In this document: positions 1,334-23,948 of the stretch, piece by piece | Layout of the letters: the number at the start of each line of letters is the position of its first letter | How positions within the stretch are numbered: position 1 is the first letter of the stretch | Origin: a virus | Virus record (IMG/VR): IMGVR_UViG_3300027608_000151 | Coordinates: 1 to 24,129 of that record | Length of the DNA stretch: 24,129 bases | Direction: 5' to 3' (one strand) | The notes under the pieces: model-generated | What the model saw: the letters and a program-made list of their open reading frames with translations, nothing else | The model's database searches: none | What the model was told of the DNA's origin: nothing | Position numbers and translations under genes: made by a program

Positions 1334-1361
1334 TTTACATTCCTCAGAGTTAGTGTAGGAT
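1334..1361 (+). promoter_or_regulatory. Promoter, TTTACA-N16-TAGGAT
   Basis: TTTACA (1334-1339), a 16-base spacer, then TAGGAT (1356-1361) preceded by TTAGTG. The predicted start of transcription (seven bases after the -10) is about 1368, only three bases before the ATG at 1371. It belongs to the family seen at 9083, 13201 and 23921. Confidence 0.75.
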
Positions 1362-1370
1362 TGTAACAGA

Positions 1371-3599
1371 ATGAAGAACGAATCAATTGTCAAATCGACA
1401 CTGGCTAAATTACTGGCTCACGAGAATATCTCGGTTCAGCATGGTAACTTCTCCACAGCCTTTTTTGATGTGAAGAATCGTATTCTCGGTCTTCCAAATT
1501 GGAAAGACAAAGGCAAAGACGTCAACGATCTCCTGGTCGGCCACGAAGTTGGTCACGCTCTTTATACTCCCTCTGACGGTCTAGACAAGGATCATGGCTG
1601 TTCGAAAGACTATCTCAACATTGTTGAGGACGTCCGAATCGAGCGGATGATTCAATCCACCTATCCGGGTTTAGTGGCAGCATTTCGTCGGGGTTATTCA
1701 ACTCTGAACAACGATAATTTCTTTGGCCAAAAAGGCAAGAATCTGAATTCCTATGGAATTGCAGATCGCATTAATTTAAAGGCCAAACTCGGTTCACTTT
1801 TAGATGTTCCATTTTCTCAGGATGAAATGCCCATTGTAACGCAGGTTATGAATGTGAAAACCTGGAAAGATACGATTGCGGCCGCTGTTGCTCTATCAAA
1901 ATTTGCTGCAGAGCAGGACGAAATTAATAAGAAAGAAAAGCCTCAGAATTCGCCAGACAATAACAAGGCGGATGCAGAAAAGGCCGATGAATCTAGCGAT
2001 GACGCGGGTCCTTCAAGTCCTGCTAATTCAAACGATCAATCTCAAAAGAGCAAAGGCAGTCAGGATAGCAAATCCGAGAGCGTGGCACAGGATGAGACTT
2101 TAAAGTCAGATGCCAAGAAAGAAAATTCTGCCAAAGAAGATTCTAAAGATGGCCCTGAGAATAAAGCCGAGATGGATAGCAGCGAGAACAATCTTGTTTC
2201 AATGCCATCAGATAATAAAAATCCACCAGGAACGCCTCCTGTCCCTGAAACGTCTCGTCATTTTGAAAAGAGTGCCAAAGATTTATTAGACACGTCTATT
2301 AACACACTCAGGACTGCTACGGCTATTGAGCCAAGTCTTAAAATGTGCCAAAGCGTGATCATTTCATATAAAGAGATTTTTGCAGCTCGCAACGCGTCTG
2401 AGCGATACATTACGGTAAGTGCAAACAATGCTCCAGTGTTTCCAGAATTTTTAGCTAGCACCAAGAAATATGTGGGCGTTCTATCCAAGGCATTTGAGAT
2501 GCGCAAGGCGGCATATCAGTACAATAGAGCATCAATATCTCAGACGGGTACACTCAATGTGAATAGACTTCACAGTTACAAGTGCACGGATGATATCTTT
2601 CTAAGTGTTACTCAACTCGCAAATGCAAAGAATCATGGAATGATGATGTTTGTTGACTATTCGTCCTCGATGCGTCACGTTCTTCCACACATTTTAAAGC
2701 ATATCATCAATCTAAGTTTGTTCTGCAGAACCACTGGAATTCCTTTTCAGGTCTATGGCTTCACGGGCGGTCACAATCACACCAGACGCGATTACTACCC
2801 CAATAGCGGCAGTCTTGCGGGTCTTGAAGGTGAGATTGATTTATCTCAGCTGATTCTTCTTGATTTAATAAATTCTTCCATGTCGAAGGGTGATTTCAAT
2901 AGAGCAATTAAAGACCTCCATTGCCAAGCTGTGTCGGGCTACTCTTTGACGTCCGTTGAATCTCTGGGCAATACTCCTCTGAATGAGGCCCTTATTGTTG
3001 CTCATAGACTTGTGACAGAATTTCAAAAGAAGCACAATATTCAGAAGATGATCACAATGGTGCTGACGGATGGAGACGGTCAGAATATCAGCCTTAAAAT
3101 CAATGAGGATTATGACGCTCATCGTCAGGCTAATGGCGTATATCCATACAACTACAATTTTACTTTGAATGGTCGCAAGTTTAAAGTAGAAGGCTCTAGC
3201 CGTAACATGACCGCAGGATTGGTCAAGAATCTTAAAATTACCACAAAATCAGTTGTCATTGGATTCTTTATTCCAGCAAATAATGCATCAGCCCGCAGAA
3301 TGGGAACTGAATCAATGCAGAGTTTAACCCCCACGCCTTTATATCTTGATGCACAGGCCATGTGGCAATCGAAGGTACCAGAATATCGCAAGAACAAGTG
3401 TGTATGTATTCCTGGTGCTTGGAACTATGACGAATACTTTATTGTGGCTTCTGGAGATGACCTTGATACCGAAGAGGACGATTTCGAAATTACTGCTGAC
3501 ATGTCCCGCGGCCGGATTGCCCGCGCCTTTAGCGATTTCTCGAAGGCAAAACAGGTAAACAAGGTGTTTGTTACTCAGTTTGCAAAGAGCATTGCATAA
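1371..3599 (+). CDS. cobT: CobT-like VWA-domain protein with HEXXH metallopeptidase-like N-terminus
   Basis: A 742-aa protein of the kind called CobT-like in cyanophages and other aquatic T4-like phages. Seen in order: an N-terminal domain with HEVGH (residues 58-62) and a downstream E-D-x-R-I-E at about 86-91, the arrangement of a zinc metallopeptidase; an acidic, Ser/Lys/Glu-rich low-complexity linker (about 185-300); and a von Willebrand A domain with MIDAS motif DYSSS starting at residue 429 and TDGDG at about 566. The following gene is a MoxR-family ATPase, the usual VWA partner, and the pair probably acts as a chaperone-like remodelling complex. The real substrate is unknown. A role in cobalamin synthesis is only by name, as no other cobalt-chelatase genes are here. 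The ATG lies three bases from a predicted transcription start and has no SD. Confidence 0.75.
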   Translation: MKNESIVKSTLAKLLAHENISVQHGNFSTAFFDVKNRILGLPNWKDKGKDVNDLLVGHEVGHALYTPSDGLDKDHGCSKDYLNIVEDVRIERMIQSTYPGLVAAFRRGYSTLNNDNFFGQKGKNLNSYGIADRINLKAKLGSLLDVPFSQDEMPIVTQVMNVKTWKDTIAAAVALSKFAAEQDEINKKEKPQNSPDNNKADAEKADESSDDAGPSSPANSNDQSQKSKGSQDSKSESVAQDETLKSDAKKENSAKEDSKDGPENKAEMDSSENNLVSMPSDNKNPPGTPPVPETSRHFEKSAKDLLDTSINTLRTATAIEPSLKMCQSVIISYKEIFAARNASERYITVSANNAPVFPEFLASTKKYVGVLSKAFEMRKAAYQYNRASISQTGTLNVNRLHSYKCTDDIFLSVTQLANAKNHGMMMFVDYSSSMRHVLPHILKHIINLSLFCRTTGIPFQVYGFTGGHNHTRRDYYPNSGSLAGLEGEIDLSQLILLDLINSSMSKGDFNRAIKDLHCQAVSGYSLTSVESLGNTPLNEALIVAHRLVTEFQKKHNIQKMITMVLTDGDGQNISLKINEDYDAHRQANGVYPYNYNFTLNGRKFKVEGSSRNMTAGLVKNLKITTKSVVIGFFIPANNASARRMGTESMQSLTPTPLYLDAQAMWQSKVPEYRKNKCVCIPGAWNYDEYFIVASGDDLDTEEDDFEITADMSRGRIARAFSDFSKAKQVNKVFVTQFAKSIA

Positions 3600-3614
3600 G
3601 TGATTGGTCATCAG
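3598..3614 (+). repeat. Possible degenerate copy D of the boundary hairpin
   Basis: AAGTGATTGGTCATCA overlaps the stop of the VWA gene. It can fold as TGAT/ATCA and resembles the AAGTGGTTGATGGTCAAC block at 23865-23882. It again precedes a promoter. Short stem, so only a weak call. Confidence 0.3.
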
Positions 3615-3636
3615 CAAGATAAACTTTTTATATTGA

Positions 3637-3665
3637 TATACAAATAGGCTGGAATATGGTATAAT
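3637..3665 (+). promoter_or_regulatory. Promoter, TATACA-N17-TATAAT
   Basis: TATACA (3637-3642), 17 bases, and a perfect TATAAT (3660-3665). The predicted transcription start is about 3672, next to a TTG (3675) and 21 bases before the ATG (3693) of the MoxR gene. Confidence 0.7.
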
Positions 3666-3692
3666 ATACCACGATTGAAAAATCACTACATT

Positions 3693-4847
3693 ATGAAAGA
3701 CAAATCCAAAAAAATTCTAGCCCTCCTCGTTGAGCGCTATCCGGACTTGAAGCAATTCCGCCGGAAAGTTATTGATCAGGCAGCCATTGATTGTGGCTAC
3801 AACTACACGGCTTGCACAGAACTTATCGGCGATTCCTTTAAAGTTCAAAGGGGGTTATATGACTATAGCTCAATACTCCTAGACGCTAATGCTCCCGTGG
3901 CCGCAAGCACGGCCGCAGCTCCGACTGTTATGAAATTAGCAGCTCCGGTTACGTCGATATTAAATACGGACACATATGTGCCAACTGTAGAATCCACCTA
4001 TGTTCGGTGGGGTGAGTTTGCTGATATTGCCTCGATCATTAAATCTCGAGCATTCTATCCAGTTTATATTGCTGGTCTTTCTGGCAATGGCAAAACCATG
4101 ATGGTCGAACAGGCCTGTGCCTATGCCGAACGTGAATACGTCCGTGTTCAAATTTCACCCGAGACGGACGAAGACGATCTGATCGGTGGTTTCCGTCTTT
4201 TAAATGGCGAGACTGTCTTTGCCAAAGGTCCCGTGGTCAAAGCCATGGAACGTGGCGCAATTCTCCTCATTGATGAGATTGATCGTTCCACCAACAAAAT
4301 CATGTGTCTTCAGGGTGTTCTTGAGGGAAAACCCATTATGATCAAAAAGACCGGCGAAGTTATTCGGCCGGCAAAAGGTTTCAATGTCATCGCAACTGCC
4401 AATACCAAAGGTAAAGGCTCGGATGATGGCCGATTTGTTTCCGCCACTGTGATCGACGAGGCTTTCCTCGAACGCTTTGTCTGCACAATCGAGCAAACGT
4501 ATCCTCCATTGGCTACCGAACGAAAGATCGTGGTAAAACACATGGAAAAGTATAACAAGGTGGATGAAGATTTCGCAGAGAAACTTGTCACCTGGTCCGA
4601 GGTGATTCGCAAGACTTTTGCTGACGGTGGTGTGGACGAGCTCATTTCGACTCGGCGCCTCTGCCATATTGCCCATACGTTCTCCATCTTTGATGATCGC
4701 CTCAAGGCGATTAACATGTGCATTTCTCGGTTTGATGAGGATACCAAGTTGGCTTTCTCTGATCTTTATTCCAAGATTGATGCATCGGTAAATGCAAAGA
4801 GTTCTGAGGTTCCTCCTCTAGAGGATCCTAGCAAAGTTCCTTTCTAA
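3693..4847 (+). CDS. cobS: CobS-like MoxR-family AAA+ ATPase
   Basis: A 384-aa AAA+ ATPase. Seen: an N-terminal helical region (about 1-55), an Ala/Pro-rich linker, Walker A GLSGNGKT (about 128-135), Walker B ILLIDEID (about 190-197), sensor-1 region with IATANTKG, and an arginine-rich C-terminal lid. This is the CobS/MoxR layout, and its position directly after a VWA protein is the classical MoxR-VWA pairing, in which the ATPase drives conformational change in a VWA-bound client. Such pairs are recurrent in aquatic T4-like phages, but their client is not established. Start choice: ATG at 3693; the frame is open to a TTG at 3675 that would be nearly leaderless from the upstream promoter, adding six residues. 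No SD is visible. Confidence 0.85.
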   Translation: MKDKSKKILALLVERYPDLKQFRRKVIDQAAIDCGYNYTACTELIGDSFKVQRGLYDYSSILLDANAPVAASTAAAPTVMKLAAPVTSILNTDTYVPTVESTYVRWGEFADIASIIKSRAFYPVYIAGLSGNGKTMMVEQACAYAEREYVRVQISPETDEDDLIGGFRLLNGETVFAKGPVVKAMERGAILLIDEIDRSTNKIMCLQGVLEGKPIMIKKTGEVIRPAKGFNVIATANTKGKGSDDGRFVSATVIDEAFLERFVCTIEQTYPPLATERKIVVKHMEKYNKVDEDFAEKLVTWSEVIRKTFADGGVDELISTRRLCHIAHTFSIFDDRLKAINMCISRFDEDTKLAFSDLYSKIDASVNAKSSEVPPLEDPSKVPF

Positions 4848-4876: not shown

Positions 4877-4904
4877 TTTACAATGTGGTGAAAATGTGTA
4901 TGAT
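4877..4904 (+). promoter_or_regulatory. Promoter, TTTACA-N16-TATGAT
   Basis: TTTACA (4877-4882), 16 bases, TATGAT (4899-4904), with ATGTG before the -10 as in sister promoters. The predicted start of transcription is 4911, exactly the A of an in-frame ATG. Confidence 0.7.
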
Positions 4905-4910
4905 TCTATT

Positions 4911-5204
4911 ATGGTTGAGAGTGGTTCAATCTTCCATAATCGTTTAAATGAACCAATGAAAAGTAATAATATGACAAACACTACATCCAAAAGCCAAAAG
5001 GCTCGCTTATTCAACTTCCTCGCCAAGGGCAAAGAAGTTTCAATCGCTGAGGCCTCTAAGCGCCTCAACATTGCGAATCCTTCGGCCGTTGTTGCTCAGC
5101 TCCGTGAAGACGGCGCCCGCATCTACACGAATCGTCGCTCCAACGCGGCTGGTCAGACGGTATTCAAATATCGCCTGGATCTCGCTCGTTCGGATCTTAG
5201 CTAA
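4911..5204 (+). CDS. Small winged-helix/HTH-like phage protein
   Basis: A 97-aa basic protein. From residue 21 on it reads as a compact helix-turn-helix: SQKARLFNFLAKGKEVSIAE, then a recognition-like segment RLNIANPSAVVAQLREDG and a beta wing with TNRRSN...FKYRL. This pattern matches small HTH proteins common in phages, so a transcriptional or DNA-binding role is plausible. The start is uncertain: ATG 4911 coincides with the predicted transcription start, whereas ATG 4971 (77 aa) begins right before the conserved domain and would leave a 60-base leader that contains a GGTTCA/TGAACC stem (4923-4954). No SD precedes either. Codon use is richer in G+C than the flanking genes. Target unknown. Confidence 0.65.
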   Translation: MVESGSIFHNRLNEPMKSNNMTNTTSKSQKARLFNFLAKGKEVSIAEASKRLNIANPSAVVAQLREDGARIYTNRRSNAAGQTVFKYRLDLARSDLS

Positions 5205-6618: not shown

Positions 6619-6647
6619 TGTCAAAACATGCGAAACTGTGGTAGAAT
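6619..6647 (+). promoter_or_regulatory. Promoter, TGTCAA-N17-TAGAAT
   Basis: TGTCAA (6619-6624), 17 bases, TAGAAT (6642-6647) preceded by ACTGTGG. The predicted transcription start (6654) is within one base of the gp44 ATG at 6653, implying a leaderless message. Confidence 0.65.
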
Positions 6648-6652
6648 AAATC

Positions 6653-7597
6653 ATGAATAATAATGAATTTCTCTGGGTGGAGAAGTATAGACCCCAGAAA
6701 CTAGAAGAGTGTATTCTTCCTGCAGGGTTACTTAAGACCTTTCAACAAATTGTAGATTCTGGCGAAATGCAGAATCTACTTTTATCTGGAACTGCAGGTA
6801 CAGGCAAGACCACGGTGGCTCGTGCTCTGTGTAATATCCTTGATCTCGATTACATCATCATCAATGGATCAGAAGAATCTGGCATTGATGTACTTCGAAA
6901 TAAGATTAAGCAATTCGCTTCATCCGTTTCACTGCAGAATAATGGCCCCAAGGTAGTCATTCTTGATGAGGCTGATTATCTTAATCCACAATCAACTCAG
7001 CCAGCACTTCGTGGTTTTATTGAAGAGTTCTCTAATAACTGTAGGTTTATTCTCACCTGTAATTTTAAGAATCGAATCATTGCTCCATTACATTCTCGTT
7101 GTGCCGTAATTGATTTTAATACTTCTAAAAAGCAATTAGCAAGTCTTTCGAGTAGTTTCATGAAGAGACTTGAGTTCATTCTCAAGAGTGAGAATGTCAC
7201 CTATGAACCTCAGGTTATTGCAGATCTTATTATGCGATTTGCGCCGGATTGGCGTCGAGTCATCAATGAATGCCAAAGACATTCTGCATCGGGTTGCATT
7301 GCTGCAACCGTGCTCGTGAATCTTTCGGATGTCAATATTCAATCATTAGTGACATCACTAAAAGATAAAAACTTTAAGGCCATGCGTGGATGGGTGGTCA
7401 ACAATATGGACATTGAACCCGCCGCAATCTACCGTAAGATCTACGATAATATGATAGAGTATGTAGTTCCTGAGAGCATTCCTCAGGTCGTTCTTATCCT
7501 GGCAGATTACCAGTACAAGCAGGCATTTGTGGCAGATCACGAGCTTAATTTAGTTGCCTGCATGATAGAGTTGATGGGTGACATTCAATGGAAATGA
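6653..7597 (+). CDS. 44: Clamp loader large subunit gp44 (AAA+)
   Basis: A 314-aa RFC/DnaX-type AAA+ ATPase (T4 gp44: 319 aa) that opens the gp45 ring and places it on primer-template. Seen: N-terminal LWVEKYRPQKLEEC typical of RFC-box II, Walker A GTAGTGKT (46-53), Walker B VVILDEAD (101-108), sensor-1 FILTCNF and the SRC arginine-finger motif HSRCAVIDF, then a helical lid and collar. The ATG has no SD and coincides with the predicted transcription start of the promoter at 6619. It overlaps gp62 by an ATGA junction, suggesting translational coupling of the two loader subunits. Confidence 0.93.
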   Translation: MNNNEFLWVEKYRPQKLEECILPAGLLKTFQQIVDSGEMQNLLLSGTAGTGKTTVARALCNILDLDYIIINGSEESGIDVLRNKIKQFASSVSLQNNGPKVVILDEADYLNPQSTQPALRGFIEEFSNNCRFILTCNFKNRIIAPLHSRCAVIDFNTSKKQLASLSSSFMKRLEFILKSENVTYEPQVIADLIMRFAPDWRRVINECQRHSASGCIAATVLVNLSDVNIQSLVTSLKDKNFKAMRGWVVNNMDIEPAAIYRKIYDNMIEYVVPESIPQVVLILADYQYKQAFVADHELNLVACMIELMGDIQWK

Positions 7598-8436: not shown

Positions 8437-8521
8437 TTGATGGCAATTACGCCATCAACTGATAATGCCCGACTGGGGTTATCGGTAATTAGAAAAGCAA
8501 TAACCTTGCATAACTGGAGGT
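8437..8521 (+). promoter_or_regulatory. Structured hsp20 leader with sequestered SD (possible RNA thermometer)
   Basis: Three stems can be drawn: TTGATGGC/GCCATCAA (8437-8458), GATAA..CCC/GGG..TTATC (8461-8483) and a weak ACCTT (8503-8507) with GAGGT (8517-8521) that covers the SD GGAGG (8516-8520). A weak SD-covering stem in front of a small heat-shock gene is the arrangement of ROSE/fourU-like thermometers. Pairing was found by eye and not energy-scored. Confidence 0.45.
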
Positions 8522-8528
8522 AAATCAG

Positions 8529-8945
8529 ATGACAAATACATACACGTTCCCACGGTCGGCCTTTGTAGGCTTTGACCATCTCTTCAACGAGCTCAACCGA
8601 GTCTCCTCAAGAGAAGATAGTTATCCACCGCATAATATCATTCAGATTGATGATGATAACTTTATGGTGGAAATCGCAGTCGCAGGATTCTCAAAAGAGA
8701 GTCTCGACATACAGCTGAAGGATTCAATCCTTACTGTAACTGGATCAATGGAAGATACTCGCAAATATACCTACAAGGGTATTTCAACACGTAAGTTCAC
8801 ACGAACTTTTACGTTGTCGGAATACGTTGAGGTAAAAGGTGCAGAGTTAGAGCATGGAATTCTTTCCATCTCTCTCACAAAAGTAATTCCTGAATCCGAG
8901 CGCCCAAAGAAGATCGAAATTGGTAAGACCTTTCTTCGGGACTAA
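8529..8945 (+). CDS. hsp20: Small heat-shock protein Hsp20 (IbpA-like)
   Basis: A 138-aa alpha-crystallin-domain chaperone that would hold unfolding proteins in a refoldable state. Seen: an IbpA-like N-terminus with FVGFDHLFNEL and YPPHNIIQ, the core VEIAVAGFSKESLDIQLKDS, KFTRTFTL, and near the C-terminus the conserved G-x-L-x-I motif (HGILSISL), ending in PKKIEIG. Hsp20 genes are common in cyanophages and other aquatic T4-like phages, and may help capsid or replication protein folding. It is the only gene in the window with a strong SD (GGAGG, eight bases before the ATG) and a long leader, and the only one after a T4-type late promoter motif. It therefore seems to be expressed differently from its neighbours. 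Confidence 0.93.
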   Translation: MTNTYTFPRSAFVGFDHLFNELNRVSSREDSYPPHNIIQIDDDNFMVEIAVAGFSKESLDIQLKDSILTVTGSMEDTRKYTYKGISTRKFTRTFTLSEYVEVKGAELEHGILSISLTKVIPESERPKKIEIGKTFLRD

Positions 8946-9082: not shown

Positions 9083-9110
9083 TTTACTTCTGTGCAAACT
9101 GTGTTAGGAT
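9083..9110 (+). promoter_or_regulatory. Promoter of the DNA polymerase gene, TTTACT-N16-TAGGAT
   Basis: TTTACT (9083-9088), 16 bases, TAGGAT (9105-9110) preceded by CTGTGT. The predicted transcription start is 9117, exactly the G of the GTG start codon of gp43. Confidence 0.75.
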
Positions 9111-9116
9111 AAGACT

Positions 9117-11771
9117 GTGAAATTCTATACAAATGTGTCTCGCGGTCCTAGAGGTCATCTTCTTTATCGTGGATATGATAATGGCCTCCGTGTAACGGAA
9201 CGAGTAAAGTTTAAACCGACTCTTTATATTTCCAGCAAAAAGGAGAAAACAGTATGGACTTCGCTCGTTGAGAATAGTCCTCTTGAGCCAATGACGTTTG
9301 ATTCAATGTATGATGCTAAGCAATTCATTGAGCAATATGAAACACTTAAAGAATCATTTCCGATATACGGTACAAAGCGGTGGATTTCGCAATTTCTTCA
9401 GGAAAAGTTTCCGGATGAAATTCACTTCGATCGTGATATTGTCAATGTAGCAACGCTTGACATCGAGGTAATGTCCAATGATGGCTTCCCCCACCCGGGA
9501 GAAGCTCGGCATGAGGTGATTACGATTACAATCAAAAATAATATTGACAACACGTATTATGTGTGGGGAATGAAACCCTATGATTCTAACAAAAAGTTAA
9601 TCTCTGCACAAGTGCAATATCGTCAGTTCGCGGATGAACAATCCATGCTGTTAGATTTTGTTACGTGGTGGGCAACGCCAAAGAATAATCCAGACGTCCT
9701 TACTGGATGGAACAGTCGCTTCTTTGACGTTCCCTATCTTGTAAATCGCATAAAACAGTTGCTCGGTGAAGAGACGGTAAATCTTCTTTCCCCATGGGGT
9801 TCTATCGAAAGTCAAGAAGTAAAGACAAAACATGGCATGCAAATTGCCTACGTTATTGCTGGAATTTCTCAACTGGATTATATGGATCTCTTTCGTAAAT
9901 TTACCACGCACACCTATGGCAATCAAGAATCCTATAAGTTAGGAAGTATTGCTAATGTCGTCCTTGGAGATGATAAACTCTCCTATGAGGAATATGGCAC
10001 ACTTCACGCCCTCTACGAAAACAATTTTCAACTCTTTGTGGACTACAACATTAAAGACGTAGAGATTGTTGATCGGCTCGAGGACAAACTCGGGCTCATT
10101 ACTCTTGCGCTTACACTTGCATATATTGGCGGTGTAAATTACAATGATACGCTTGGAACAACTGCGATCTGGGAATCGATCATCTATCGCGATCTTATGC
10201 GTAAAGGCATTGCTCCAAATGTTCATCAGATCGTCCCAAGTTACGAATATAAGATTGTTGGTGCCCTTGATGATAGTACATCCGGCACATCCGGTGAAGC
10301 AAGTCATATTGCTGGTGGATATGTAAAACCCCCCAAAGTAGGTCTTCATAATTGGGTATGTTCGTTCGACTTAAATTCCTTGTATCCAAATCTCATTATT
10401 CAATACAACATGTCGCCCGAAACAGTATTGCCGGAACAGACACCCGATATTGACGTCGATTCAGTATTGACAGGAATTGAAGTAATTCCTACAATCCCAA
10501 ATGCTATTACTGCAGCAAATGGTGTTCAGTTTGATCCTACTCAGCCAGGCGTTATTCCCCGATTGATTCGCGAGATCTATGATCGTCGCGTAAGTCTCAA
10601 GAAAACAATGTTAAGTGAAAAGAAGCGGTTTGAGACGATTGAAAAGACGAATAAGATCGAACGCTATAAATGTGAACGTGAAATCTCACGATTAGAGAAT
10701 CAACAGATTGCTGTTAAAATTCTGCTAAATTCTCTCTACGGTGCCATGGGCAACAAATACTTCCAGTACTACGATACTCGCATTGCTGAAGGAACTACCC
10801 TAAGTGGCCAGTTGGCAATTCGTTCTGCTGAAAAGATAGTAAATACCTTTCTAAACGAAACTCTTAAAACTAAAAATACTGATTATGTCATTGCTATTGA
10901 TACTGACTCATTATATGTCTCGATGGAACCTATTGTTCAAAAGTTTAATCCAAAGAATCCGGTTAAGTTCTTGGATGAATTTTGTGCAAAAGCTATCGAG
11001 CCTATTGTAGGTAAGGCCTACGATCTTCTTGCGAAGAGAATGGGATGTCCGACAAATCGAATGGGTATGAAACGTGAGGCAATTGCTGATCGTGGTATCT
11101 GGACTGCAAAGAAACGTTACATTTTAAATGTTCATAATAACGAAGGAGTTCAATACGCAAAACCTAAAATTAAAGTGATGGGCATCGAGGCTGTAAAGTC
11201 ATCAACTCCCGGAGTATGCCGCGATGCACTTAATCTTATGTTTGACGTTATTATGACTAAATCAGAAACTGAAGCTCAAAGAGAAATTGCTCGGTTCCGT
11301 GATAAATTCGAAAATCTTTCCCCTGCTGAAATCGCGTTTCCTCGTGGTGTTACAAAAGTGGCCTATTATAGCCCAAAGAGCGGTGGCATTTATGCATCAT
11401 CTGCACATCCAGTAACTACAAAGGACATAGATTATAAAACAGGAAAGCACATTGTTGTTACGTCTACCCCTATTAATGCACGTGCAGCTTTACTTTACAA
11501 TTATCATATTAAGCTCAACGGGCTAGAACTAAAATATCCCCTAATTCGTGCGGGTGATAAAATCAAATACATCTATCTTAAAAAGCCAAATCCGCTAGGT
11601 GAGAACGTCATCGCTTTTGTTGACACTCTCCCAAAAGAATTAAATCTAGATAGATATGTTGATCATGAGCTGCAATTTGAAAAGACTTTCCTTGATCCTC
11701 TTGATATTATCTTTAAGGCTATTGGATGGCGTTTAGAAAAAAACGCAAGTCTTGAAGAATTCTTTACATAA
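9117..11771 (+). CDS. 43: Family-B replicative DNA polymerase gp43
   Basis: An 884-aa polymerase (T4 gp43: 898 aa) with 3'-5' proofreading. Seen: Exo I TLDIEVMS (D115, E117), Exo II NPDVLTGWNSRFFD, Exo III YNIKDVEIVD, polymerase motif A DLNSLYPNLI (about 418), motif B KILLNSLYGAMGNK, motif C AIDTDSLY (about 593-600) and the K-K-R-Y motif TAKKRY. The C-terminus SLEEFFT resembles the clamp-binding tail of T4 gp43. The GTG start sits at the predicted transcription start and has no SD. The frame before it has no better ATG. It opens a transcript that probably continues into the pyrophosphatase and primase-like genes. All catalytic carboxylates are present, so it should be active in both functions. 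Confidence 0.97.
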   Translation: MKFYTNVSRGPRGHLLYRGYDNGLRVTERVKFKPTLYISSKKEKTVWTSLVENSPLEPMTFDSMYDAKQFIEQYETLKESFPIYGTKRWISQFLQEKFPDEIHFDRDIVNVATLDIEVMSNDGFPHPGEARHEVITITIKNNIDNTYYVWGMKPYDSNKKLISAQVQYRQFADEQSMLLDFVTWWATPKNNPDVLTGWNSRFFDVPYLVNRIKQLLGEETVNLLSPWGSIESQEVKTKHGMQIAYVIAGISQLDYMDLFRKFTTHTYGNQESYKLGSIANVVLGDDKLSYEEYGTLHALYENNFQLFVDYNIKDVEIVDRLEDKLGLITLALTLAYIGGVNYNDTLGTTAIWESIIYRDLMRKGIAPNVHQIVPSYEYKIVGALDDSTSGTSGEASHIAGGYVKPPKVGLHNWVCSFDLNSLYPNLIIQYNMSPETVLPEQTPDIDVDSVLTGIEVIPTIPNAITAANGVQFDPTQPGVIPRLIREIYDRRVSLKKTMLSEKKRFETIEKTNKIERYKCEREISRLENQQIAVKILLNSLYGAMGNKYFQYYDTRIAEGTTLSGQLAIRSAEKIVNTFLNETLKTKNTDYVIAIDTDSLYVSMEPIVQKFNPKNPVKFLDEFCAKAIEPIVGKAYDLLAKRMGCPTNRMGMKREAIADRGIWTAKKRYILNVHNNEGVQYAKPKIKVMGIEAVKSSTPGVCRDALNLMFDVIMTKSETEAQREIARFRDKFENLSPAEIAFPRGVTKVAYYSPKSGGIYASSAHPVTTKDIDYKTGKHIVVTSTPINARAALLYNYHIKLNGLELKYPLIRAGDKIKYIYLKKPNPLGENVIAFVDTLPKELNLDRYVDHELQFEKTFLDPLDIIFKAIGWRLEKNASLEEFFT

Positions 11772-13149: not shown

Positions 13150-13187
13150 CCAACGACTTAAGAAGTGTTGGCTATCAATGACTTAGG
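13149..13187 (+). repeat. Boundary hairpin, divergent copy C
   Basis: Starting at the stop of the primase-like gene, CCAACGACTT pairs with AAGTGTTGG (one bulge), followed by TATCAATGACTTAGG. The part 13163-13187 aligns with AAGTGGTTGATGGTCAACACCTTAGG-type sequence of the copy at 23862, with the same AAGTG start and CTTAGG end. It lies 13 bases before a promoter. No U-tract follows. Confidence 0.45.
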
Positions 13188-13200
13188 ACGTTCTTATGTG

Positions 13201-13228
13201 TTTACTTTCCGAGAGATTAGTGTAGGAT
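13201..13228 (+). promoter_or_regulatory. Promoter, TTTACT-N16-TAGGAT
   Basis: TTTACT (13201-13206), 16 bases, TAGGAT (13223-13228) with ATTAGTG before it. The predicted transcription start, 13235, is exactly the A of the next ATG. Confidence 0.75.
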
Positions 13229-13234
13229 ACCAGT

Positions 13235-13666
13235 ATGAATCATACAATCAAAAGCAAAAAACTTCACCTCCTTGGTCTAAATCTTTTTGGAAAAGTGGCA
13301 AATCTCTCAACTCGGCAACTACGGACCCATTACGATGTGAGAATTCAGAATCGCCATACAAGCAAAACTTTCGGTAATTGCATGACGGTCAATCCAAACT
13401 CAAAGGGAACTGTTGAATGCATTACCGACACGAATCAACTCATTTTTATTGATTATGATGATCCAAAGTATATTCGCATCTACGAGTGCACAAATAAATC
13501 AAAATATGACATGGAATACGTGGGCGGTGAGGATCGCGAGGGGCTCAAGCGCGTGTCGGTATGTTACCATATCGCGGACATGAAACTCCTCCATGAAATT
13601 GATGAACCTAGTCTTCTGTCAGAAATGCAGTCTTTAAGCTCAGCACACAAATACCAAAAACTATGA
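13235..13666 (+). CDS. Hypothetical protein, leaderless
   Basis: A 143-aa protein that I do not recognise. The N-terminus is basic (MNHTIKSKKLHLLGLNLFGK) and the middle rich in beta-type sequence with acidic patches (LIFIDYDDPKYIRIYE). There is no signal peptide or membrane segment. The start was chosen because the ATG is on the predicted transcription start of the promoter at 13201; an overlapping 70-aa frame beginning at 13165 crosses that promoter and is rejected. It ends in an ATGA overlap with the next gene, so the two are probably co-translated. RNA or DNA binding is possible given the charge, but nothing in it proves this. Confidence 0.7.
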   Translation: MNHTIKSKKLHLLGLNLFGKVANLSTRQLRTHYDVRIQNRHTSKTFGNCMTVNPNSKGTVECITDTNQLIFIDYDDPKYIRIYECTNKSKYDMEYVGGEDREGLKRVSVCYHIADMKLLHEIDEPSLLSEMQSLSSAHKYQKL

Positions 13667-14331: not shown

Positions 14332-14360
14332 TTTACAAACTGCTATAACTAGTGTATGAT
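14332..14360 (+). promoter_or_regulatory. Promoter of the modification cluster, TTTACA-N17-TATGAT
   Basis: TTTACA (14332-14337), 17 bases, TATGAT (14355-14360) preceded by CTAGTG. The predicted start (14367) is six bases before the ATG at 14373. No other promoter-like element of this kind was seen until 18873, so the cluster may be one transcript. Confidence 0.7.
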
Positions 14361-14372
14361 TATCTCTTTATT

Positions 14373-14723
14373 ATGAAAGAATCAATTAAAGTCCTGCAAG
14401 AGTGTGCAGATCTGCAGCTCAAAAAGTCTAATGATTATCAGAATCCGACGAGTACGATTCGTCAGGCTGATTACTACCCACGCGGTGCTGCATCCATCCT
14501 GGATGTAATGCACACCAAAGTGCTGCGTCTTCGTTCCGTTCTTGAGGCAATGGAGAATGATCCAAATTATTCACCTAATTTTGATTCCCTCGAAGACTCT
14601 GCAAAAGATCTCATCAATTATTCATCCTTCTTTGTTTCTTTTTGCCGTAAGGGTATTGACGGCCAGCGCACTGATCGTGACTTCCTTAACCGCAATCTCA
14701 ATGCTAAATCTACCCAGAGTTAA
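14373..14723 (+). CDS. Nucleotide-modification-associated domain 1 (DUF1599)-like protein
   Basis: A 116-aa helical protein. Features that recall the Nmad1/DUF1599 family: an opening helix with CADLQLKKSNDYQNP, R-x-A-x-Y-Y-P-R-G-A-A-S-I-L, then MHTKVLRLRSVLEAM and a closing SLEDSAKDLINYSSFFVSF. The family is found beside base-modifying enzymes in phages and bacteria; its chemistry is not established. The upstream in-frame GTG at 14352 falls inside the promoter -10 region and is rejected. The stop overlaps the hydroxymethylase start by 23 bases, implying coupled expression. Family call moderate; role inferred from context. Confidence 0.6.
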   Translation: MKESIKVLQECADLQLKKSNDYQNPTSTIRQADYYPRGAASILDVMHTKVLRLRSVLEAMENDPNYSPNFDSLEDSAKDLINYSSFFVSFCRKGIDGQRTDRDFLNRNLNAKSTQS

Positions 14724-15378
14724 TGACATTCGCCAGCATTTTAAAGATGCTCTTACGAATGGCGTCTATACGACAGACAAGAGTGGTGTTAAAACCCTTG
14801 AGTTGTGTGGTGCATCATTCTTTGCAGATGAAGAGGCCATCTTTGGCGAAGTGAATCATGCCTATGTAAAGGCTGAACTTGCCTGGTATGATTCTGAATC
14901 CTTGAATGTAAATGACATTCCTGGTGGTGCTCCAAAGATCTGGAAACAAGTTGCGACAAAAGATGGCTGGATCAACTCCAACTATGGCTGGTGTATTTAC
15001 TCAGAGAATAACCATAAGCAATATGTTTCTGCACGAAATGAGCTTATTGCAAATCGAAATAGCCGCAGAGCCACAATGATCTATACTCGGCCAACGATGC
15101 ATAAAGATTATTGTGAAGATGGCTGTTCAGATTTCATGTGCACAAATGCGGTGCAATATCTTATTCGCGAAAATAAACTTCATGCAATTGTGCAAATGAG
15201 AAGCAATGATGTGATCTTCGGTTATAAGAATGATCGTGCTTGGCAGTTCGAAGTTCAGAATCGACTCCTGAAAGACATCAATGCTCTATCCGATGAGAAA
15301 TATCAATTAGGTGATCTCATTTGGCATGTCGGATCGCTTCACGTCTATGAACGTCATTTCCCACTCATCAATGGATAA
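14701..15378 (+). CDS. 42: dCMP hydroxymethylase (thymidylate synthase superfamily)
   Basis: A 225-aa enzyme predicted to make 5-hydroxymethyl-dCMP from dCMP and methylene-tetrahydrofolate (T4 gp42: 246 aa). Seen: KAELAWY with the general-base Glu at residue 59, KDGWINSNYGW, SRRATMIYTRP, the nucleophile C147 in DFMCTNAVQ, QMRSNDVIFGYKND with D178, and GSLHVYERHF. An ungapped comparison puts D178 at the Asn that selects dUMP in thymidylate synthase; T4 gp42 has C148 and D179 there, the same spacing of 31. This favours dCMP over dUMP. The start is ATG 14701; a longer frame from 14542 only overlaps the previous gene. It overlaps the deaminase start. A plain thymidylate synthase is unlikely. Confidence 0.85.
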   Translation: MLNLPRVNDIRQHFKDALTNGVYTTDKSGVKTLELCGASFFADEEAIFGEVNHAYVKAELAWYDSESLNVNDIPGGAPKIWKQVATKDGWINSNYGWCIYSENNHKQYVSARNELIANRNSRRATMIYTRPTMHKDYCEDGCSDFMCTNAVQYLIRENKLHAIVQMRSNDVIFGYKNDRAWQFEVQNRLLKDINALSDEKYQLGDLIWHVGSLHVYERHFPLING

Positions 15379-15820: not shown

Positions 15821-16981
15821 ATGGGACTCTTGACTACACGGTATTACGATGAATTTCTTCGCTATTATCAAATAGCAAAAGACCAGCAGGAAAAGTGCAA
15901 CGTATCGGTGCATCATCCTTATGGGATGTTAACACATCTCGAGTCGAACATGAACGACGATCTTCTTGAAAATGTAGAGCTCTATGACGTGGTTGAGCGT
16001 AAATACGCTGGATTCTCTCAGATTGTCAATGATTGTTTTTATGGATGGACTCCTGATCATCCTTATTGGGCAAAGATGTCTGCGGGCAATCATACTACTC
16101 AACGTAAGACCGTGGCCACAAACTGGACTGGAAAGAAATTCTCCCTTGCGGAATGGATGTACATATTCATTCTTCATCGCGTAACCGGTTCTGCCATCAA
16201 TTATGCAACCAAACCGTCTGGTTACCATAACACACTTCTCTTTAAACTTCATGCAGCTTCTTCAATTCCTGAGATGACGGAAATTGTGAAAGCGGAAAAG
16301 TCTCCGTTTTACACTTCAGTTGGATATCAGTTTCCCGCATTTCCAAAACCGCCTGCGGGTTATAAGCGCGGTGGCGATTACTACCTCTGCGAATTTGCTC
16401 CACGTTTGGCCACTGAACTTGCAGATTTCTTAGTTGCAGGAAATAAGAAGTCACTTCGCGAAATTGGCGAATTCATGTTGAGCTGGAATCAAGCAAATGG
16501 AATGCGTAGGTTTGCTTTCCAATATGCAGCAGTTGTTGCTGACGTTGCTGACTGGTTTCCTCAATATGTCCATCGTGATACTCCATTCTATTATGGTACC
16601 AATGCCATTGAGTGCATTTCATATCTTGCGACGCCAACCAAGAAAATGAAGACTGAGGCTTTCCTCGATCTTGTCATGGAAAAGATTCAATCTGATACCG
16701 GGGCATTCCCATATAACGCAGAAGATGTGTGCTGTGACTTTATTCGTTGGGTTGAGAATTACGTTCGCCCAGGTGCGGCATACAACCATCTTGACAGAGA
16801 TAAACTCTGGTCATCACACCGGATCCACGATCACCCGTACGGGCGCCAGAAGCCAATGCTTGAGCTGGGCCTCATTAAATCATTTAACGATCTTGACGTA
16901 CATCCATCAGACGACTATGTCATTAGCCGTGCCGGAGTCACTGTCGAAAAATACAAAGAGCTCTGCAAAACCTTAAAATAA
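15821..16981 (+). CDS. Putative amino acid:DNA transferase-like protein (aGPT-pyrophosphorylase-like)
   Basis: A 386-aa, mainly helical protein. The core EWMYIFILHRVTGSAINYA followed by GYHNTLL (about 112-140), a FPAFPKPPAGYKRGG loop, and the later RDKLWSSHRIHDHPYGRQKP (about 322-341) recall the alpha-glutamyl/putrescinyl-thymine pyrophosphorylase group, DNA-glycosylase-like proteins that put amino acids or polyamines on phosphorylated 5-hydroxymethyluracil in phage DNA. This is pattern recognition, not an alignment. It lies three bases after the deaminase and just before a PLP enzyme, a setting that fits base hypermodification. No P-loop kinase domain is fused and none is seen in the window. 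If the base is hydroxymethylcytosine, it acts on a new substrate. No SD; ATG follows TAATTT. Confidence 0.5.
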   Translation: MGLLTTRYYDEFLRYYQIAKDQQEKCNVSVHHPYGMLTHLESNMNDDLLENVELYDVVERKYAGFSQIVNDCFYGWTPDHPYWAKMSAGNHTTQRKTVATNWTGKKFSLAEWMYIFILHRVTGSAINYATKPSGYHNTLLFKLHAASSIPEMTEIVKAEKSPFYTSVGYQFPAFPKPPAGYKRGGDYYLCEFAPRLATELADFLVAGNKKSLREIGEFMLSWNQANGMRRFAFQYAAVVADVADWFPQYVHRDTPFYYGTNAIECISYLATPTKKMKTEAFLDLVMEKIQSDTGAFPYNAEDVCCDFIRWVENYVRPGAAYNHLDRDKLWSSHRIHDHPYGRQKPMLELGLIKSFNDLDVHPSDDYVISRAGVTVEKYKELCKTLK

Positions 16982-18872: not shown

Positions 18873-18901
18873 TGTACAGATCCGCAAAACTATAGTATAT
18901 T
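18873..18901 (+). promoter_or_regulatory. Promoter of uvsX, TGTACA-N17-TATATT
   Basis: TGTACA (18873-18878), 17 bases, TATATT (18896-18901). The predicted transcription start, 18908, is the A of the uvsX ATG. An alternative -10, TATAGT (18891-18896), would start five bases earlier. Confidence 0.65.
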
Positions 18902-18907
18902 TCTATT

Positions 18908-19948
18908 ATGTCATCACTACTCGCCAAATTAAAAAAGAATTCGCGGATTGAAAGTTCCGCCACTCTTGAGGATTCTCAGATCTTCAATCAAAGCCCCAGT
19001 ATTCCTACGGATGTTCCCATGATCAATGTTGCTCTTTCGGGCGATCTTGAGAAAGGTCTCACATCAGGTCTTACTGTCCTCGCAGGTCCTTCAAAGCACT
19101 TCAAGACTTCATTTGCACTGATCATGATTGCTGCGTACATGAAGAAATATCCCGAGTCGGTTGTTCTCTTTTATGATTCGGAATTTGGTTCTCCTCAGGC
19201 TTATTTCAAGACCTTTGGCATTGACACTAGCCGTGTTCTTCATTGCCCAATTCTGAATGTCGAAGATCTCAAATTCGATCTCATGAAGCAATTAGATGGC
19301 ATCGAGAAGAGCGATAAAGTAATTATCATGATTGACTCTGTGGGTAATCTTGCTTCTAAGAAAGAAGTTGAGGATGCTCTGAATGAGAAATCTGTGGCTG
19401 ATATGACTCGTGCAAAAGCATTCAAGAGTCTCTTCCGCATGGTCACTCCACATCTTGCAATGAAGGACATCCCCCTCGTTGCGGTTGGTCATACATACAA
19501 GACTCAGGACATGTATCCCAAGGATGTTCTTTCAGGTGGCACGGGTCTCTACTATTCTGCCAACACCGTCTGGATTCTCGGGCGTCAGCAAGACAAGGGC
19601 GATGAAGGCATTGAAGGTTACCATTTCGTAATCAATGTTGACAAATCCCGGTTCGTGAAAGAAAAGTCTAAAGTTCCTATCTCAGTCTCGTTTGCAAATG
19701 GCGTTGAGAAATACTCAGGTCTTCTTGATGTTGCCCTTGAGGGCGGATTTGTCACAAAGCCGTCAATGGGATGGTATGCAAAGAAGGGTGATGATGCTAA
19801 ATTCCGTGAGAAAGATACATACAATAAGGAATTCTGGCAGGACATCCTTGATTTAAAGGAATTCAAAGACTATATTCGTCAACGTTATACTCTTGGTATT
19901 GATGGACAACACTACAGTCCAGCAATTATTGATGACGATGAAATCTAA
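18908..19948 (+). CDS. uvsX: RecA-like recombinase UvsX
   Basis: A 346-aa strand-exchange recombinase (T4 UvsX: 391 aa) that pairs homologous DNA in recombination-dependent replication and repair. Seen: Walker A GPSKHFKTS (60-68), similar to the T4 form, then VVLFYDSEFGSP, Walker B VIIMIDSVGNL, the L2-like loop region around SGGTGLYYSANTVW and an acidic C-terminal tail ending DDDEI, as in UvsX. The ATG has no SD and sits on the predicted transcription start. It works with the gp46/47 nuclease encoded at the left edge and with gp41 downstream. The next gene's start lies inside its last codons. Confidence 0.93.
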   Translation: MSSLLAKLKKNSRIESSATLEDSQIFNQSPSIPTDVPMINVALSGDLEKGLTSGLTVLAGPSKHFKTSFALIMIAAYMKKYPESVVLFYDSEFGSPQAYFKTFGIDTSRVLHCPILNVEDLKFDLMKQLDGIEKSDKVIIMIDSVGNLASKKEVEDALNEKSVADMTRAKAFKSLFRMVTPHLAMKDIPLVAVGHTYKTQDMYPKDVLSGGTGLYYSANTVWILGRQQDKGDEGIEGYHFVINVDKSRFVKEKSKVPISVSFANGVEKYSGLLDVALEGGFVTKPSMGWYAKKGDDAKFREKDTYNKEFWQDILDLKEFKDYIRQRYTLGIDGQHYSPAIIDDDEI

Positions 19949-21622: not shown

Positions 21623-21718
21623 ATGGAAACACAAATGGAATTCAATCAAATCAGTAGCAGCTTCATTCTTTTGAATGATCAGATGACATTGTCATTTTTT
21701 AGTGTACAAATAGGGTAA
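21623..21718 (+). CDS. Possible 31-aa peptide
   Basis: A short frame begins at an ATG five bases after the helicase stop, in the TAATATT-ATG context seen at other gene junctions, and encodes METQMEFNQISSSFILLNDQ followed by 11 residues. It covers a small hairpin (21683-21695) and the -35 of the next promoter, so it may be fortuitous. Confidence 0.2.
   Translation: METQMEFNQISSSFILLNDQMTLSFFSVQIG
21683..21700 (+). terminator. Possible weak terminator after the helicase gene
   Basis: ATGAC-ATT-GTCAT followed by TTTTTT. The stem is only five pairs, so termination would be inefficient, but the U-run and place between two transcripts fit. Confidence 0.4.
21694..21710 (+). repeat. 17-base direct repeat, left copy
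   Basis: attttttagtgtacaaa occurs here and at 22294-22310, exactly 600 bases apart, flanking the 191-aa gene. This copy includes the TGTACA -35 box of that gene's promoter. Confidence 0.7.
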
Positions 21719-21731
21719 TTCGGTATAGGAT
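21703..21731 (+). promoter_or_regulatory. Promoter, TGTACA-N17-TAGGAT
   Basis: TGTACA (21703-21708), 17 bases, TAGGAT (21726-21731), overlapped by TATAAT (21731-21736). The predicted transcription start is 21738 or 21743, six or one bases before the ATG at 21744. Confidence 0.7.
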
Positions 21732-21743
21732 ATAATCTACAAT

Positions 21744-22319
21744 ATGGGAATGTTCGATACAATTCAATGCAGCGATGCAATGCCGTTTAATGACGACATG
21801 GCCGCTTTGGGACTTAATGTCCGTGACTGGAGCTTTCAAACGAAAGACCTTACCGACCTTATGTCGGTATATGTTTTACAGGATGGTATCCTGTATGAAA
21901 GAAGGTACAAAGAAACAAAATGGATTGAGCCTGATTTCAGCCGCGAACCAAGGTTGGGAAATTTTGGTCATATGGAATATACCGGAGAGTATCTTGAAGA
22001 TACAAAACATCATGGTGTAATAAATATGTATGATTACCGGCAAGATGTAATGGGGTGGGATTGCTATATTGAGTATGCTGTTACTTTTACGGATGGCAAA
22101 GTAACTCATACCGAATTAACAGAGTTTACCAAGGAAGACAGCGCTCCAAGAATTCAAAAAAGTAAAGAACTGTGGGATAGAATTGATGCTTATAAAGCTA
22201 AATGGTATAACAGATACATTTTTTATACGAAGCCGTATCGTTTCTTTCGTTTACATCTTATCAAGCTGATTGGAGTAATCCGCAGGTGCTGTGATTTTTT
22301 AGTGTACAAACTACCATAA
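21744..22319 (+). CDS. Hypothetical phage protein (MGMFDxIxC type)
   Basis: A 191-aa protein whose opening MGMFDTIQCSDAMPF is a recurrent start of small phage proteins of unknown function. Further features: FQTKDLTDLMSVYVLQDGILYE, a GHMEYTGEYLED segment, several strands (YIEYAVTFTDGKVTHTELTEF), then a C-terminal basic, hydrophobic stretch (YRFFRLHLIKLIGVIRRCCDF) that could be an amphipathic membrane anchor. Its last codons lie in the right copy of the 17-base repeat. It is rich in A+T compared with the replication genes, typical of accessory phage cargo. The ATG is close to the predicted transcription start, with no SD. Confidence 0.7.
   Translation: MGMFDTIQCSDAMPFNDDMAALGLNVRDWSFQTKDLTDLMSVYVLQDGILYERRYKETKWIEPDFSREPRLGNFGHMEYTGEYLEDTKHHGVINMYDYRQDVMGWDCYIEYAVTFTDGKVTHTELTEFTKEDSAPRIQKSKELWDRIDAYKAKWYNRYIFYTKPYRFFRLHLIKLIGVIRRCCDFLVYKLP
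22294..22310 (+). repeat. 17-base direct repeat, right copy
   Basis: Identical to 21694-21710. Here it encodes the terminal FLVYK of the preceding protein, and no -10 follows at the proper distance, so only the left copy works as a promoter part. Confidence 0.7.
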
Positions 22320-22635: not shown

Positions 22636-22830
22636 ATGAAAGCATTCTCTATAGCATTGGCCATTGTGGCGGGCATACTTTTGTTAATATGGTTTCCATT
22701 TGCAGTTACCTGGAGCCTGAATACTCTTTTTGGTCTGTCGATACCCGTAACTCCAAAAACATGGTTGGCCACAATGGTACTTTTAATGGTTCTTGGAACA
22801 TCATCTCGGATTAGTACCACAAAAAAATAA
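22636..22830 (+). CDS. Small two-helix membrane protein
   Basis: A 64-aa protein with a hydrophobic segment at about 5-32 (ALAIVAGILLLIWFPFAV) and another at about 43-56 (WLATMVLLMVLG), ending in a polar SSRISTTKK tail. This is the layout of a small inner-membrane protein. It begins four bases after the preceding stop and ends one base before the next start. Functions such as superinfection control or lysis are common for such proteins, but no motif decides. A 60-aa overlapping frame at 22632 is rejected because it lacks any membrane or domain signal and shares the region. Confidence 0.55.
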   Translation: MKAFSIALAIVAGILLLIWFPFAVTWSLNTLFGLSIPVTPKTWLATMVLLMVLGTSSRISTTKK

Positions 22831-22831
22831 T

Positions 22832-23464
22832 ATGATCGGTCGTACTGTACACACTGTGTCGGAATATCTTGCACAGGATATCTCAAAGAGAGAACGCAAA
22901 GTTTGGTATTGGCCAACAAAATGGTATGTTGAACCATATGCTCTTGAGCTCGATGAGTGGGATAAATTATATGCGCATTTAAAGATGGCATATCCGATAC
23001 AGCATTTTATTCGTATGGATTGCAATATTATGTTTTGCAGAATACGGCATAAGTGGAGCAACGTAAAGCACTGGTGCGAATACCGCTTAAATCATCCACG
23101 CAAGCATATGATGAAAGCGATATTTACAAAAGATTATCAGGATCTTGATACAATTACCGTAAATTTCTGTCTAGAGTCCATTGTCGAGTATGTTGATCGC
23201 GAGAAATGTTTTGAACATATTCTGTGGGATGATACGGATGAACGTATTCAGCAGGCCGCAATGATTAAAGAAATCTATGAATATGCAACCAAGTGGCGAG
23301 ATCTGCGTGGAAAAGAAATTAATCTTTTATGGGCAGATGTTCCACTCAAAAACACTCGTCTAGACGATTATGCCGTAATCGAGATAAAAGAGAAAGAAAT
23401 AGAAGATCTGGATACAAAATACTGCAATTGGGTGATAAGTAATCGAAAACATCTCTGGACATAA
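22832..23464 (+). CDS. Hypothetical protein, Trp-rich
   Basis: A 210-aa protein rich in Trp and charged residues (RKVWYWPTKWYVEPYALELDEWDKLY). It contains a basic His/Arg middle (FCRIRHKWSNVKHWCEYRLN) and a mostly helical second half with EYATKWRDLRGKEINLLW. No family recognised. The ATG at 22832 follows the membrane-protein stop by one base (TAATATG); a TTG at 22793 in frame overlaps the previous gene and adds 13 residues, less likely. It may be a cytoplasmic accessory protein. Confidence 0.65.
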   Translation: MIGRTVHTVSEYLAQDISKRERKVWYWPTKWYVEPYALELDEWDKLYAHLKMAYPIQHFIRMDCNIMFCRIRHKWSNVKHWCEYRLNHPRKHMMKAIFTKDYQDLDTITVNFCLESIVEYVDREKCFEHILWDDTDERIQQAAMIKEIYEYATKWRDLRGKEINLLWADVPLKNTRLDDYAVIEIKEKEIEDLDTKYCNWVISNRKHLWT

Positions 23465-23466
23465 TT

Positions 23467-23853
23467 ATGTTAAACGATTATCCTGTTGACGAAGATACCG
23501 ATCTAGCAGTCTATGAGTTTGTGGGTGATATTATCACCGCGGTCAAAGAGTTTGATTACAATTGTGATATTGATGCTCAATTTGACGCATGTTTAAACAA
23601 GCAAGAGACTCTCAGGGCAAGTCAGGGGGCAATTAAATCGCCTCTTGGCACAATTGCAGTCTTTCCGGATTTTAAGAATCGAAGTGCAAAAGCATATATC
23701 ATCAATAAGGGAATTATTCACAATATGCAGCAGGAAGGTTTCGATGACGACTTTATTCAGGACGAAGGGCGGTTTTATAGCGTTCCCTTTTCCTACACAA
23801 AAAAGAACGTAGATACGCTGGCATATTACTTAACTCACAAAATTGCTCCGTAA
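23467..23853 (+). CDS. Hypothetical protein
   Basis: A 128-aa acidic protein of unknown function. The first part is strongly acidic (LNDYPVDEDTDLAVYEFVGD), the middle has KSPLGTIAVFPDFKNRSAKAYIINKG that reads as strands, and the end is amphipathic. It begins two bases after the preceding stop, so it shares that transcript, and it is the last gene before the hairpin and promoter at 23862-23948. Confidence 0.65.
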   Translation: MLNDYPVDEDTDLAVYEFVGDIITAVKEFDYNCDIDAQFDACLNKQETLRASQGAIKSPLGTIAVFPDFKNRSAKAYIINKGIIHNMQQEGFDDDFIQDEGRFYSVPFSYTKKNVDTLAYYLTHKIAP

Positions 23854-23861
23854 TAAAAAGT

Positions 23862-23890
23862 CCTAAGTGGTTGATGGTCAACACCTTAGG
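23862..23890 (+). repeat. Boundary hairpin, copy B (core GTTGATGGTCAAC)
   Basis: CCTAAG (23862-23867) pairs with CTTAGG (23885-23890) and GGTTGA with TCAAC around a TGG loop, a 13-bp stem with two mismatches. It starts eight bases after a gene stop and ends 30 bases before a promoter. No U-tract. Near-identical over 21 bases to 1285-1305. Confidence 0.65.
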
Positions 23891-23920
23891 TAAAATACCG
23901 ACCCTCTTGTCATTATTATG

Positions 23921-23948
23921 TTTACTTTGATCCTAAATGTGCTAGGAT
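23921..23948 (+). promoter_or_regulatory. Promoter, TTTACT-N16-TAGGAT
   Basis: TTTACT (23921-23926), 16 bases, TAGGAT (23943-23948) preceded by ATGTGC. Unlike its sisters it is followed by a leader of about 64 bases before the next ATG. Confidence 0.7.

Follow-up and report, generated by a model that had tools for sequence, protein, structure and literature searches.

Leaderless initiation, in which the messenger RNA (mRNA) begins at or next to the start codon, is considered typical of actinobacteria and Deinococcus and uncommon among enterobacteria. Thermus phages also make leaderless transcripts, and in T4 the promoter early stem-loops (PeSL) are repeated promoter cassettes placed before small genes. 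Leaderless genes are given as ~20% in Actinobacteria, 40% in Deinococcus-Thermus and 13-16% in Acidobacteria and delta-Proteobacteria (PMC3160421). The mRNA of lambda cI is described as leaderless, and GUG as a leaderless start that is poor in E. coli and efficient in some actinobacteria (PMC9031893). The stretch analysed here, hereafter the window, is the complete IMG/VR virus record IMGVR_UViG_3300027608_000151 (24,129 bases) of an uncultured T4-like phage. It contains a family of promoters whose predicted transcription starts fall on start codons or a few nucleotides (nt) before them, and many of the genes served very probably give leaderless or near-leaderless (0-6 nt) mRNAs. We infer where and when transcription starts, which polymerase reads these promoters and how the genes behind them are translated.

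The window was scanned for a -35 element TTTAC[ACT] or T[AG]TACA, a spacer of 16-17 nt and a -10 element TANNAT. The predicted start (+1) was taken as the seventh base after the -10 hexamer, and the offset as the number of nt that separate the -10 from the start codon, so that offsets of 6, 9 and 12 correspond to leaders of 0, 3 and 6 nt. A sequence-only reading of this DNA had counted ten such elements, and the scan returned exactly ten sites on the plus strand and none on the minus strand, two of them within coding sequence. The other eight precede genes (-35 at 1334, 3637, 4877, 9083, 13201, 14332, 21703 and 23921), and the family consensus is TTTACW, 16-17 nt and a TAKGAT-like -10. The start codon stands at offset 6 at 9117 (GTG), 13235 and 4911, at offset 9 at 1371 and at TTG 3675, which the earlier reading had overlooked, and at offset 12 at 14373 and 21744. 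Thus, three of the coincidences of +1 and start codon that it had proposed follow from the motif, and the close starts it had listed at 1371, 14373 and 21744 have leaders of 3, 6 and 6 nt.

A search of seven clade records for the motif alone, with start codons ignored, gave 100 coding-strand sites. Of these, 32 have ATG or GTG at offset 6, 28 at offset 9 and nine at offset 12, and one and three have it at offsets 7 and 8; none of the 12 opposite-strand sites in these records had ATG or GTG at offset 6, 9 or 12. The 140-kb record G001, whose gene order is that of the window, alone has 29 sites, ten at offset 6 and eight at offset 9. With related records and duplicated promoter cassettes, the 100 sites are not independent; sites alike in the 33 bases that follow the -10 were therefore merged, which left 47 groups. 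Offset 6 is found in 14 of them (binomial P ~4e-10) and offset 9 in eight (P ~2e-4), the background being 3.45% per position. Among the 40 groups with an open reading frame (ORF) behind, the lead is 0 in 12, 3 nt in eight and 6 nt in three (23/40). The codons 2-9 are A-rich (A 0.447 vs 0.376). The earlier claim that the spacing is beyond chance is borne out by these groups, and over the seven records the distances are not random, with peaks at 6, 9 and 12 nt.

Stretches of up to 50 kb of T4, syn9, Melnitz, C48C1, G003, L060 and E. coli served as controls. With an exact -35, none of them had a comparable peak, offset 6 occurring at 0-2 sites per sequence; with one -35 mismatch, there were 0-4 such sites per sequence (Melnitz 4/53). 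The exact pattern with RTG at +1 had no match in the T4, syn9 or Melnitz records, searched in full; among clade records it occurred seven times in G012, three times in G009, once in G011 and not in G010. In the outgroups G003 and C48C1, promoters are mostly of the TTGACA/TATAAT type, with longer leaders. The start-blind counts, the groups and the control sequences rule out chance or AT-richness as the cause of the spacing. The promoter-to-start arrangement is real and lineage-wide, and it is apparently under selection.

Conservation among orthologues is most informative at the zero-leader sites. The gp43 promoter (9083..9119, on the plus strand like all features given here) comprises TTTACT at 9083-9088, 16 nt and TAGGAT at 9105-9110, with +1 at 9117 on the GTG start. 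That start is GTG in the window, L009, L010 and G001 and ATG in G012, always at offset 6 after TAGGAT, and the six bases in between differ among these orthologues. A GTG-led gp43 is notable in view of the low efficiency described for leaderless GUG starts in E. coli. At the gene h13235, the promoter (13201..13237) has TTTACT at 13201-13206, 16 nt and TAGGAT at 13223-13228, and +1 falls on ATG 13235, which is replaced by GTG at the same +1 in G012. The uvsX promoter (18873..18910), with TGTACA at 18873-18878, 17 nt and TATATT at 18896-18901, places +1 on ATG 18908. Its -10 (TATAGT in G001 and G004) lies outside TANNAT and was recognised by eye after being missed by the automatic scan, so that the coincidence proposed earlier for 18908 stands only with this TATATT; a spacing of ~6 nt is also kept in the sister loci L138, L139 and L140. 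On the other hand, the coincidence proposed within one base at 6653 was abandoned as a family site: the weak gp44 candidate (6619..6655) has TAGAAT at 6642-6647, 5 nt before ATG 6653, and a -35, TGTCAA, that does not fit, and the arrangement was not picked up by the scan and is not conserved in G001.

Other members of the family have short leaders. The promoter of the vWA/peptidase-like gene ("vWA" being a label given in this analysis) spans 1334..1373, with TTTACA at 1334-1339, 16 nt, TAGGAT at 1356-1361, +1 at 1368 and ATG 1371 behind a leader of 3 nt; the offset of 9 recurs in G001. The 14373 promoter (14332..14375; TTTACA 14332-14337, 17 nt, TATGAT 14355-14360) gives ATG 14373 a leader of ~6 nt, and its offset of 12 is also found in G001, G004, G012 and the sister locus L134. 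Similarly, the 21744 promoter (21703..21746; TGTACA 21703-21708, 17 nt, TAGGAT 21726-21731) gives ATG 21744 a leader of ~6 nt, the offset being 12 in G001, G004 and G012 as well, and 9 in the sister loci L138, L139, L140 and L146. For the MoxR-type ATPase (promoter 3637..3695; TATACA 3637-3642, 17 nt, TATAAT 3660-3665, +1 at 3672), the start is either TTG 3675 (leader 3, offset 9) or the next ATG, 3693 (leader 21). It remains ambiguous because the sister loci L148, L143 and L126 place ATG at offset 27; in G001, ATG is at offset 9. Just upstream of three family promoters, similar stem-loop-like stretches of the type CCTAAGT..TTGATGGTCAAC..CTTAGG occur at 1285-1315, 13150-13190 and 23860-23892, and they recall terminator-promoter cassettes. 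In G012, three near-identical promoter-plus-start cassettes lie within 700 nt (44347, 44590 and 45026) at different small genes, which suggests cassette duplication.

One scan of viral contigs gave 34 loci: two have 95% gp43 identity to the window, a group that includes G001 has 69-70%, and others are more distant. A separate scan with TTTACTTT-N14-TAKGAT-N6-ATGA yielded 42 stretches and 34 new loci. Among these new loci, six show no resemblance to the clade (L131, L135, L150, L151, L153 and L157) and L141 shows nearly none, the others being relatives; many belong to a sister lineage with a GC content of ~50% and 55-62% gp43 identity. Since the sister loci were picked for having the pattern, only their other, unselected sites were counted, in four records: of 18 such coding-strand sites, six are at offset 6, three at 9 and three at 12. 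At the vWA gene, all four sister loci (4/4) open with ATG-ATG, the first of the two lying at +1, and the window and G001 have AGA-ATG. At a small gene encoding MKAIT..KG, ATG-ATG in G211 and G215 corresponds to ATA-ATG in G001 and G212 at equal distance from the promoter. These pairs are direct evidence that the +1 triplet was once a start codon and then drifted in frame (ATG-ATG to ATA-ATG). The motif, its spacing, the conservation of that spacing and the exchange and drift of start codons between orthologues are all directly visible. Such in-frame drift from an ancestral +1 ATG would explain leaders of 0, 3 and 6 nt. It was rejected as the cause of longer leaders, as six of the 15 groups with a lead of at least 9 nt are multiples of three, which is no excess, and the drift idea is limited accordingly to 0, 3 and 6 nt.

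The family may be described as a sigma-70-type promoter class of this phage lineage (TTTACW, 16-17 nt, TAKGAT-like -10) that the main RNA polymerase of the host probably reads early in infection. Transcription would start on the start codon or 0-6 nt before it, and ribosomes would recognise a 5'-terminal AUG or GUG, not a Shine-Dalgarno (SD) sequence, in those 23 of the 40 groups with an ORF. Start codons would have shifted in frame from the ancestral +1, and late (structural) genes would be served by a separate TATAAATA class without fixed spacing. The status of the family as an early class is suggested by the genes it serves and by that late class. The TATAAATA late-type sites are indeed separate and have no sharp offset to start codons, for which reason the idea that late promoters are leaderless too was rejected; the family itself is not of the T4 late type, as it combines a TAKGAT-like -10 with a -35, vs a TATAAATA -10 without -35. 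The non-random distances and the exchange of ATG and GTG at +1 between orthologues favour the leaderless reading put forward at the outset. Its further argument, the lack of SD sequences, held for the family and proved not to be specific to it: an SD-like sequence is present at 1/19 family-promoter genes and at 13/106 other genes of G001, called with a simple gene caller made for this analysis, with 6.7% at random positions. The phage is SD-poor overall, so that SD absence is weakly discriminating. A contrasting case in the window is hsp20 (8514..8531), whose ATG 8529 stands behind a strong SD (GGAGG) and has no family promoter.

Several observations count against a leaderless interpretation of the whole family. 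A zero leader holds for part of it only, other members having 3 or 6 nt and some being leadered, such as the clade sites G001rc 97318, 59907 and 52503 and the 23921 promoter of the window (23921..23948; TTTACT, 16 nt, TAGGAT), whose +1 at 23955 has no start codon nearby and whose first open ATG, at ~24001, implies a leader of ~46 nt. Two of the ten window sites lie inside coding sequence, at 1244 (the end of gp46) and 12188 (in h12196). Nor is the spacing strict: gp43 is at offset 9 in L134 and 8 in L148, two of the 18 sister sites are at offset 7 and two at 8, and 10 nt also occurs in the sister records. Offset-6 sites also occur in controls (T4 2/12, G003 2/13, C48C1 1/11). Finally, a +1 ATG is conserved in G001 and G012 where it is not the start of the gene. 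This is the case of the winged-helix (HTH_39) gene, whose promoter (4877..4973) has TTTACA at 4877-4882, 16 nt, TATGAT at 4899-4904 and +1 at 4911 on an ATG. The arithmetic of the earlier reading is correct here, and its assignment of 4911 as the start of the gene probably is not, as similarity of the protein starts near codon 19. The own start of the gene is likely ATG 4971, 60 nt past +1. The +1 ATG opens MLRLVQSA-stop and MVELVPSIISN-stop in G001 and G012 and an in-frame extension in the window, so that ATG 4911 probably begins an upstream ORF, itself leaderless, or an N-terminal extension. Leaderless small ORFs with unconserved sequence are described in mycobacteria (PMC4633059).

It is unlikely that the family genes are ordinary leadered genes, with real transcription starts upstream or start codons downstream, and that the closeness reflects compact intergenic regions. 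The winged-helix start at 4971 and several family sites with leaders of 20-60 nt would fit such an explanation, but compact spacing would not yield sharp peaks at 6, 9 and 12 nt, nor does it account for an ATG/GTG swap at one fixed position or for drift from ATG to ATA beside an in-frame ATG; moreover, gp43 homology to the outgroups starts no more than three residues from the proposed start. It is very unlikely that the +1 ATG is a feature of the promoter or initially transcribed sequence, acting in escape or start-site choice, and that its coincidence with a start codon is secondary. The main argument for this is the winged-helix +1 ATG, kept in the window, G001 and G012 despite differing peptides, together with the repetition of the cassette. 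Against it, GTG replaces ATG in two orthologue sets, and the +1 triplet opens the next gene at most zero-leader sites; other family promoters carry ATA, AGA, AGT, CGT or TAT at +1, including three in the transfer RNA (tRNA)/transfer-messenger RNA (tmRNA) region of G001 (G001rc 69612, 75188 and 76726) that lack ATG or GTG there. That only a few independent cases exist, multiplied by recent copying of a cassette of promoter and start codon, is hardly credible: TTTACT-N16-TAKGATTGTAYCATAATGA does occur in 45 stretches of viral contigs, and near-identical copies are clustered in G012, but the 14 non-redundant groups at offset 6 largely refute it, and the single-copy core genes gp43, uvsX and vWA have their own diverged promoters with the spacing conserved or nearly so.

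The replication cluster of the window comprises gp45, gp44, gp62, regA, hsp20, gp43, uvsX and gp41, accompanied by a truncated SMC-type gp46, the vWA/peptidase-like gene, the MoxR-type ATPase and genes without known function. Among named phages, Phage C48C1 (Kyanoviridae) has the closest gp43, at 46%, followed by cyanophages (43-44%). By these best matches and the recognisable T4 replication core (gp41, 43, 44, 45, 46, 62, regA and uvsX), the phage is T4-like and related to Kyanoviridae. A "thymidylate synthase" at 14701-15378 has ~60% identity to T4-type dCMP hydroxymethylases of Klebsiella phages, and a dCMP deaminase gene follows it, a pair that suggests that the phage DNA may contain hydroxymethylcytosine. 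At 15821-16981, a protein of 386 amino acids is 92-94% conserved between the window and G001/G004, most neighbours being at ~70-85%; it had no match in Pfam, PHROGs or phage records.

The host likely has an outer membrane (diderm), as indicated by the presence of CsgG and CsgF. G001 encodes CsgG, CsgF (Pfam), FecR and a CHASE2-cyclase, and these genes are found in 5/13 records (G001, G009, G011 and the sister records G211 and G212), most others being partial. In G001 they lie at 47037-52239 (L054), the cyclase being a phage-borne CHASE2-adenylate/guanylate cyclase; a phage nucleotide cyclase seems unusual. Among phage proteins, the CsgG is closest to those of Pelagibacter phage HTVC008M and Methylophilales phages (48-50%), in which curli pore genes are described as phage-borne and not present in the host (PMC9004378). 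An actinobacterial host, suggested by TAGGAT and the leaderless genes, was rejected on the presence of these four genes and the absence of WhiB, found in 0/5 related records, which may be incomplete. A Planctomycetes host, suggested by the sole GTDB match (L060, 49% identity), was also rejected: 199 genomes showed no signature, with 15 exact matches to the leaderless pattern in 14 genomes vs 8 for the reversed control. G001 has a one-piece tmRNA and 23 tRNAs; the tmRNA, at 63854-64222 (L055 3854-4222) beside the tRNA genes, has a long predicted tag, GINKALSNFFGFAEEMPLAA. A host search based on it gave only T-arm matches of 28-30 nt, and none in plasmids.

A lineage in which +1 starts are kept over large divergence offers a natural orthologue series for relating leader length and AUG/GUG to leaderless translation, and it hints at a preference for leaderless mRNAs on the part of the host, which is probably diderm, or of the phage. 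Gene callers that expect SD sequences may misplace starts in such phages. It is conceivable, if rather doubtful, that in a widespread T4-like lineage infecting a diderm host the early promoters normally produce leaderless mRNAs, among them that of a DNA polymerase starting with GUG and those of upstream ORFs before a regulator. If true, this would imply either that an unrecognised clade of diderm hosts translates leaderless mRNAs efficiently or that the phage shifts ribosomes to leaderless initiation early in infection.

Among known systems, the family is most like the TA-led genes of bacteria, described as having a TANNNT-type -10 ~12 bp before the start, ATG or GTG at +1 and no SD (Zheng et al., 2011, PMC3160421; Shell et al., 2015, PMC4633059). 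In the phage family, TANNNT is found ~10-12 bp upstream and ATG/GTG is conserved at +1; SDs are lacking, which discriminates weakly. Unlike those genes, the family has a strong -35 (TTTACW) and start codons shifted in frame by 3 or 6 nt, and unlike the mycobacterial leaderless genes it belongs to a T4-like phage whose host is apparently diderm and not actinobacterial. With the early sigma-70 promoters of T4-like phages (T4, cyanophages, Melnitz) it shares the -35/-10 structure, the 16-17 nt spacing and the position before replication and small genes, but in contrast to the T4, syn9 and Melnitz stretches its start codons peak 6 or 9 nt after the -10. Like the PeSL of T4, the cassettes are repeated, and in the present family the repeated cassette includes the start codon. 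A literature search restricted to open-licence PMC papers found none on leaderless early genes of T4-like phages. Leaderless genes themselves are already known, and what would be new is that a T4-like phage has an early class that is leaderless across its lineage, unlike lambda cI and the Thermus phages, which concern single genes or hosts rich in leaderless mRNAs.

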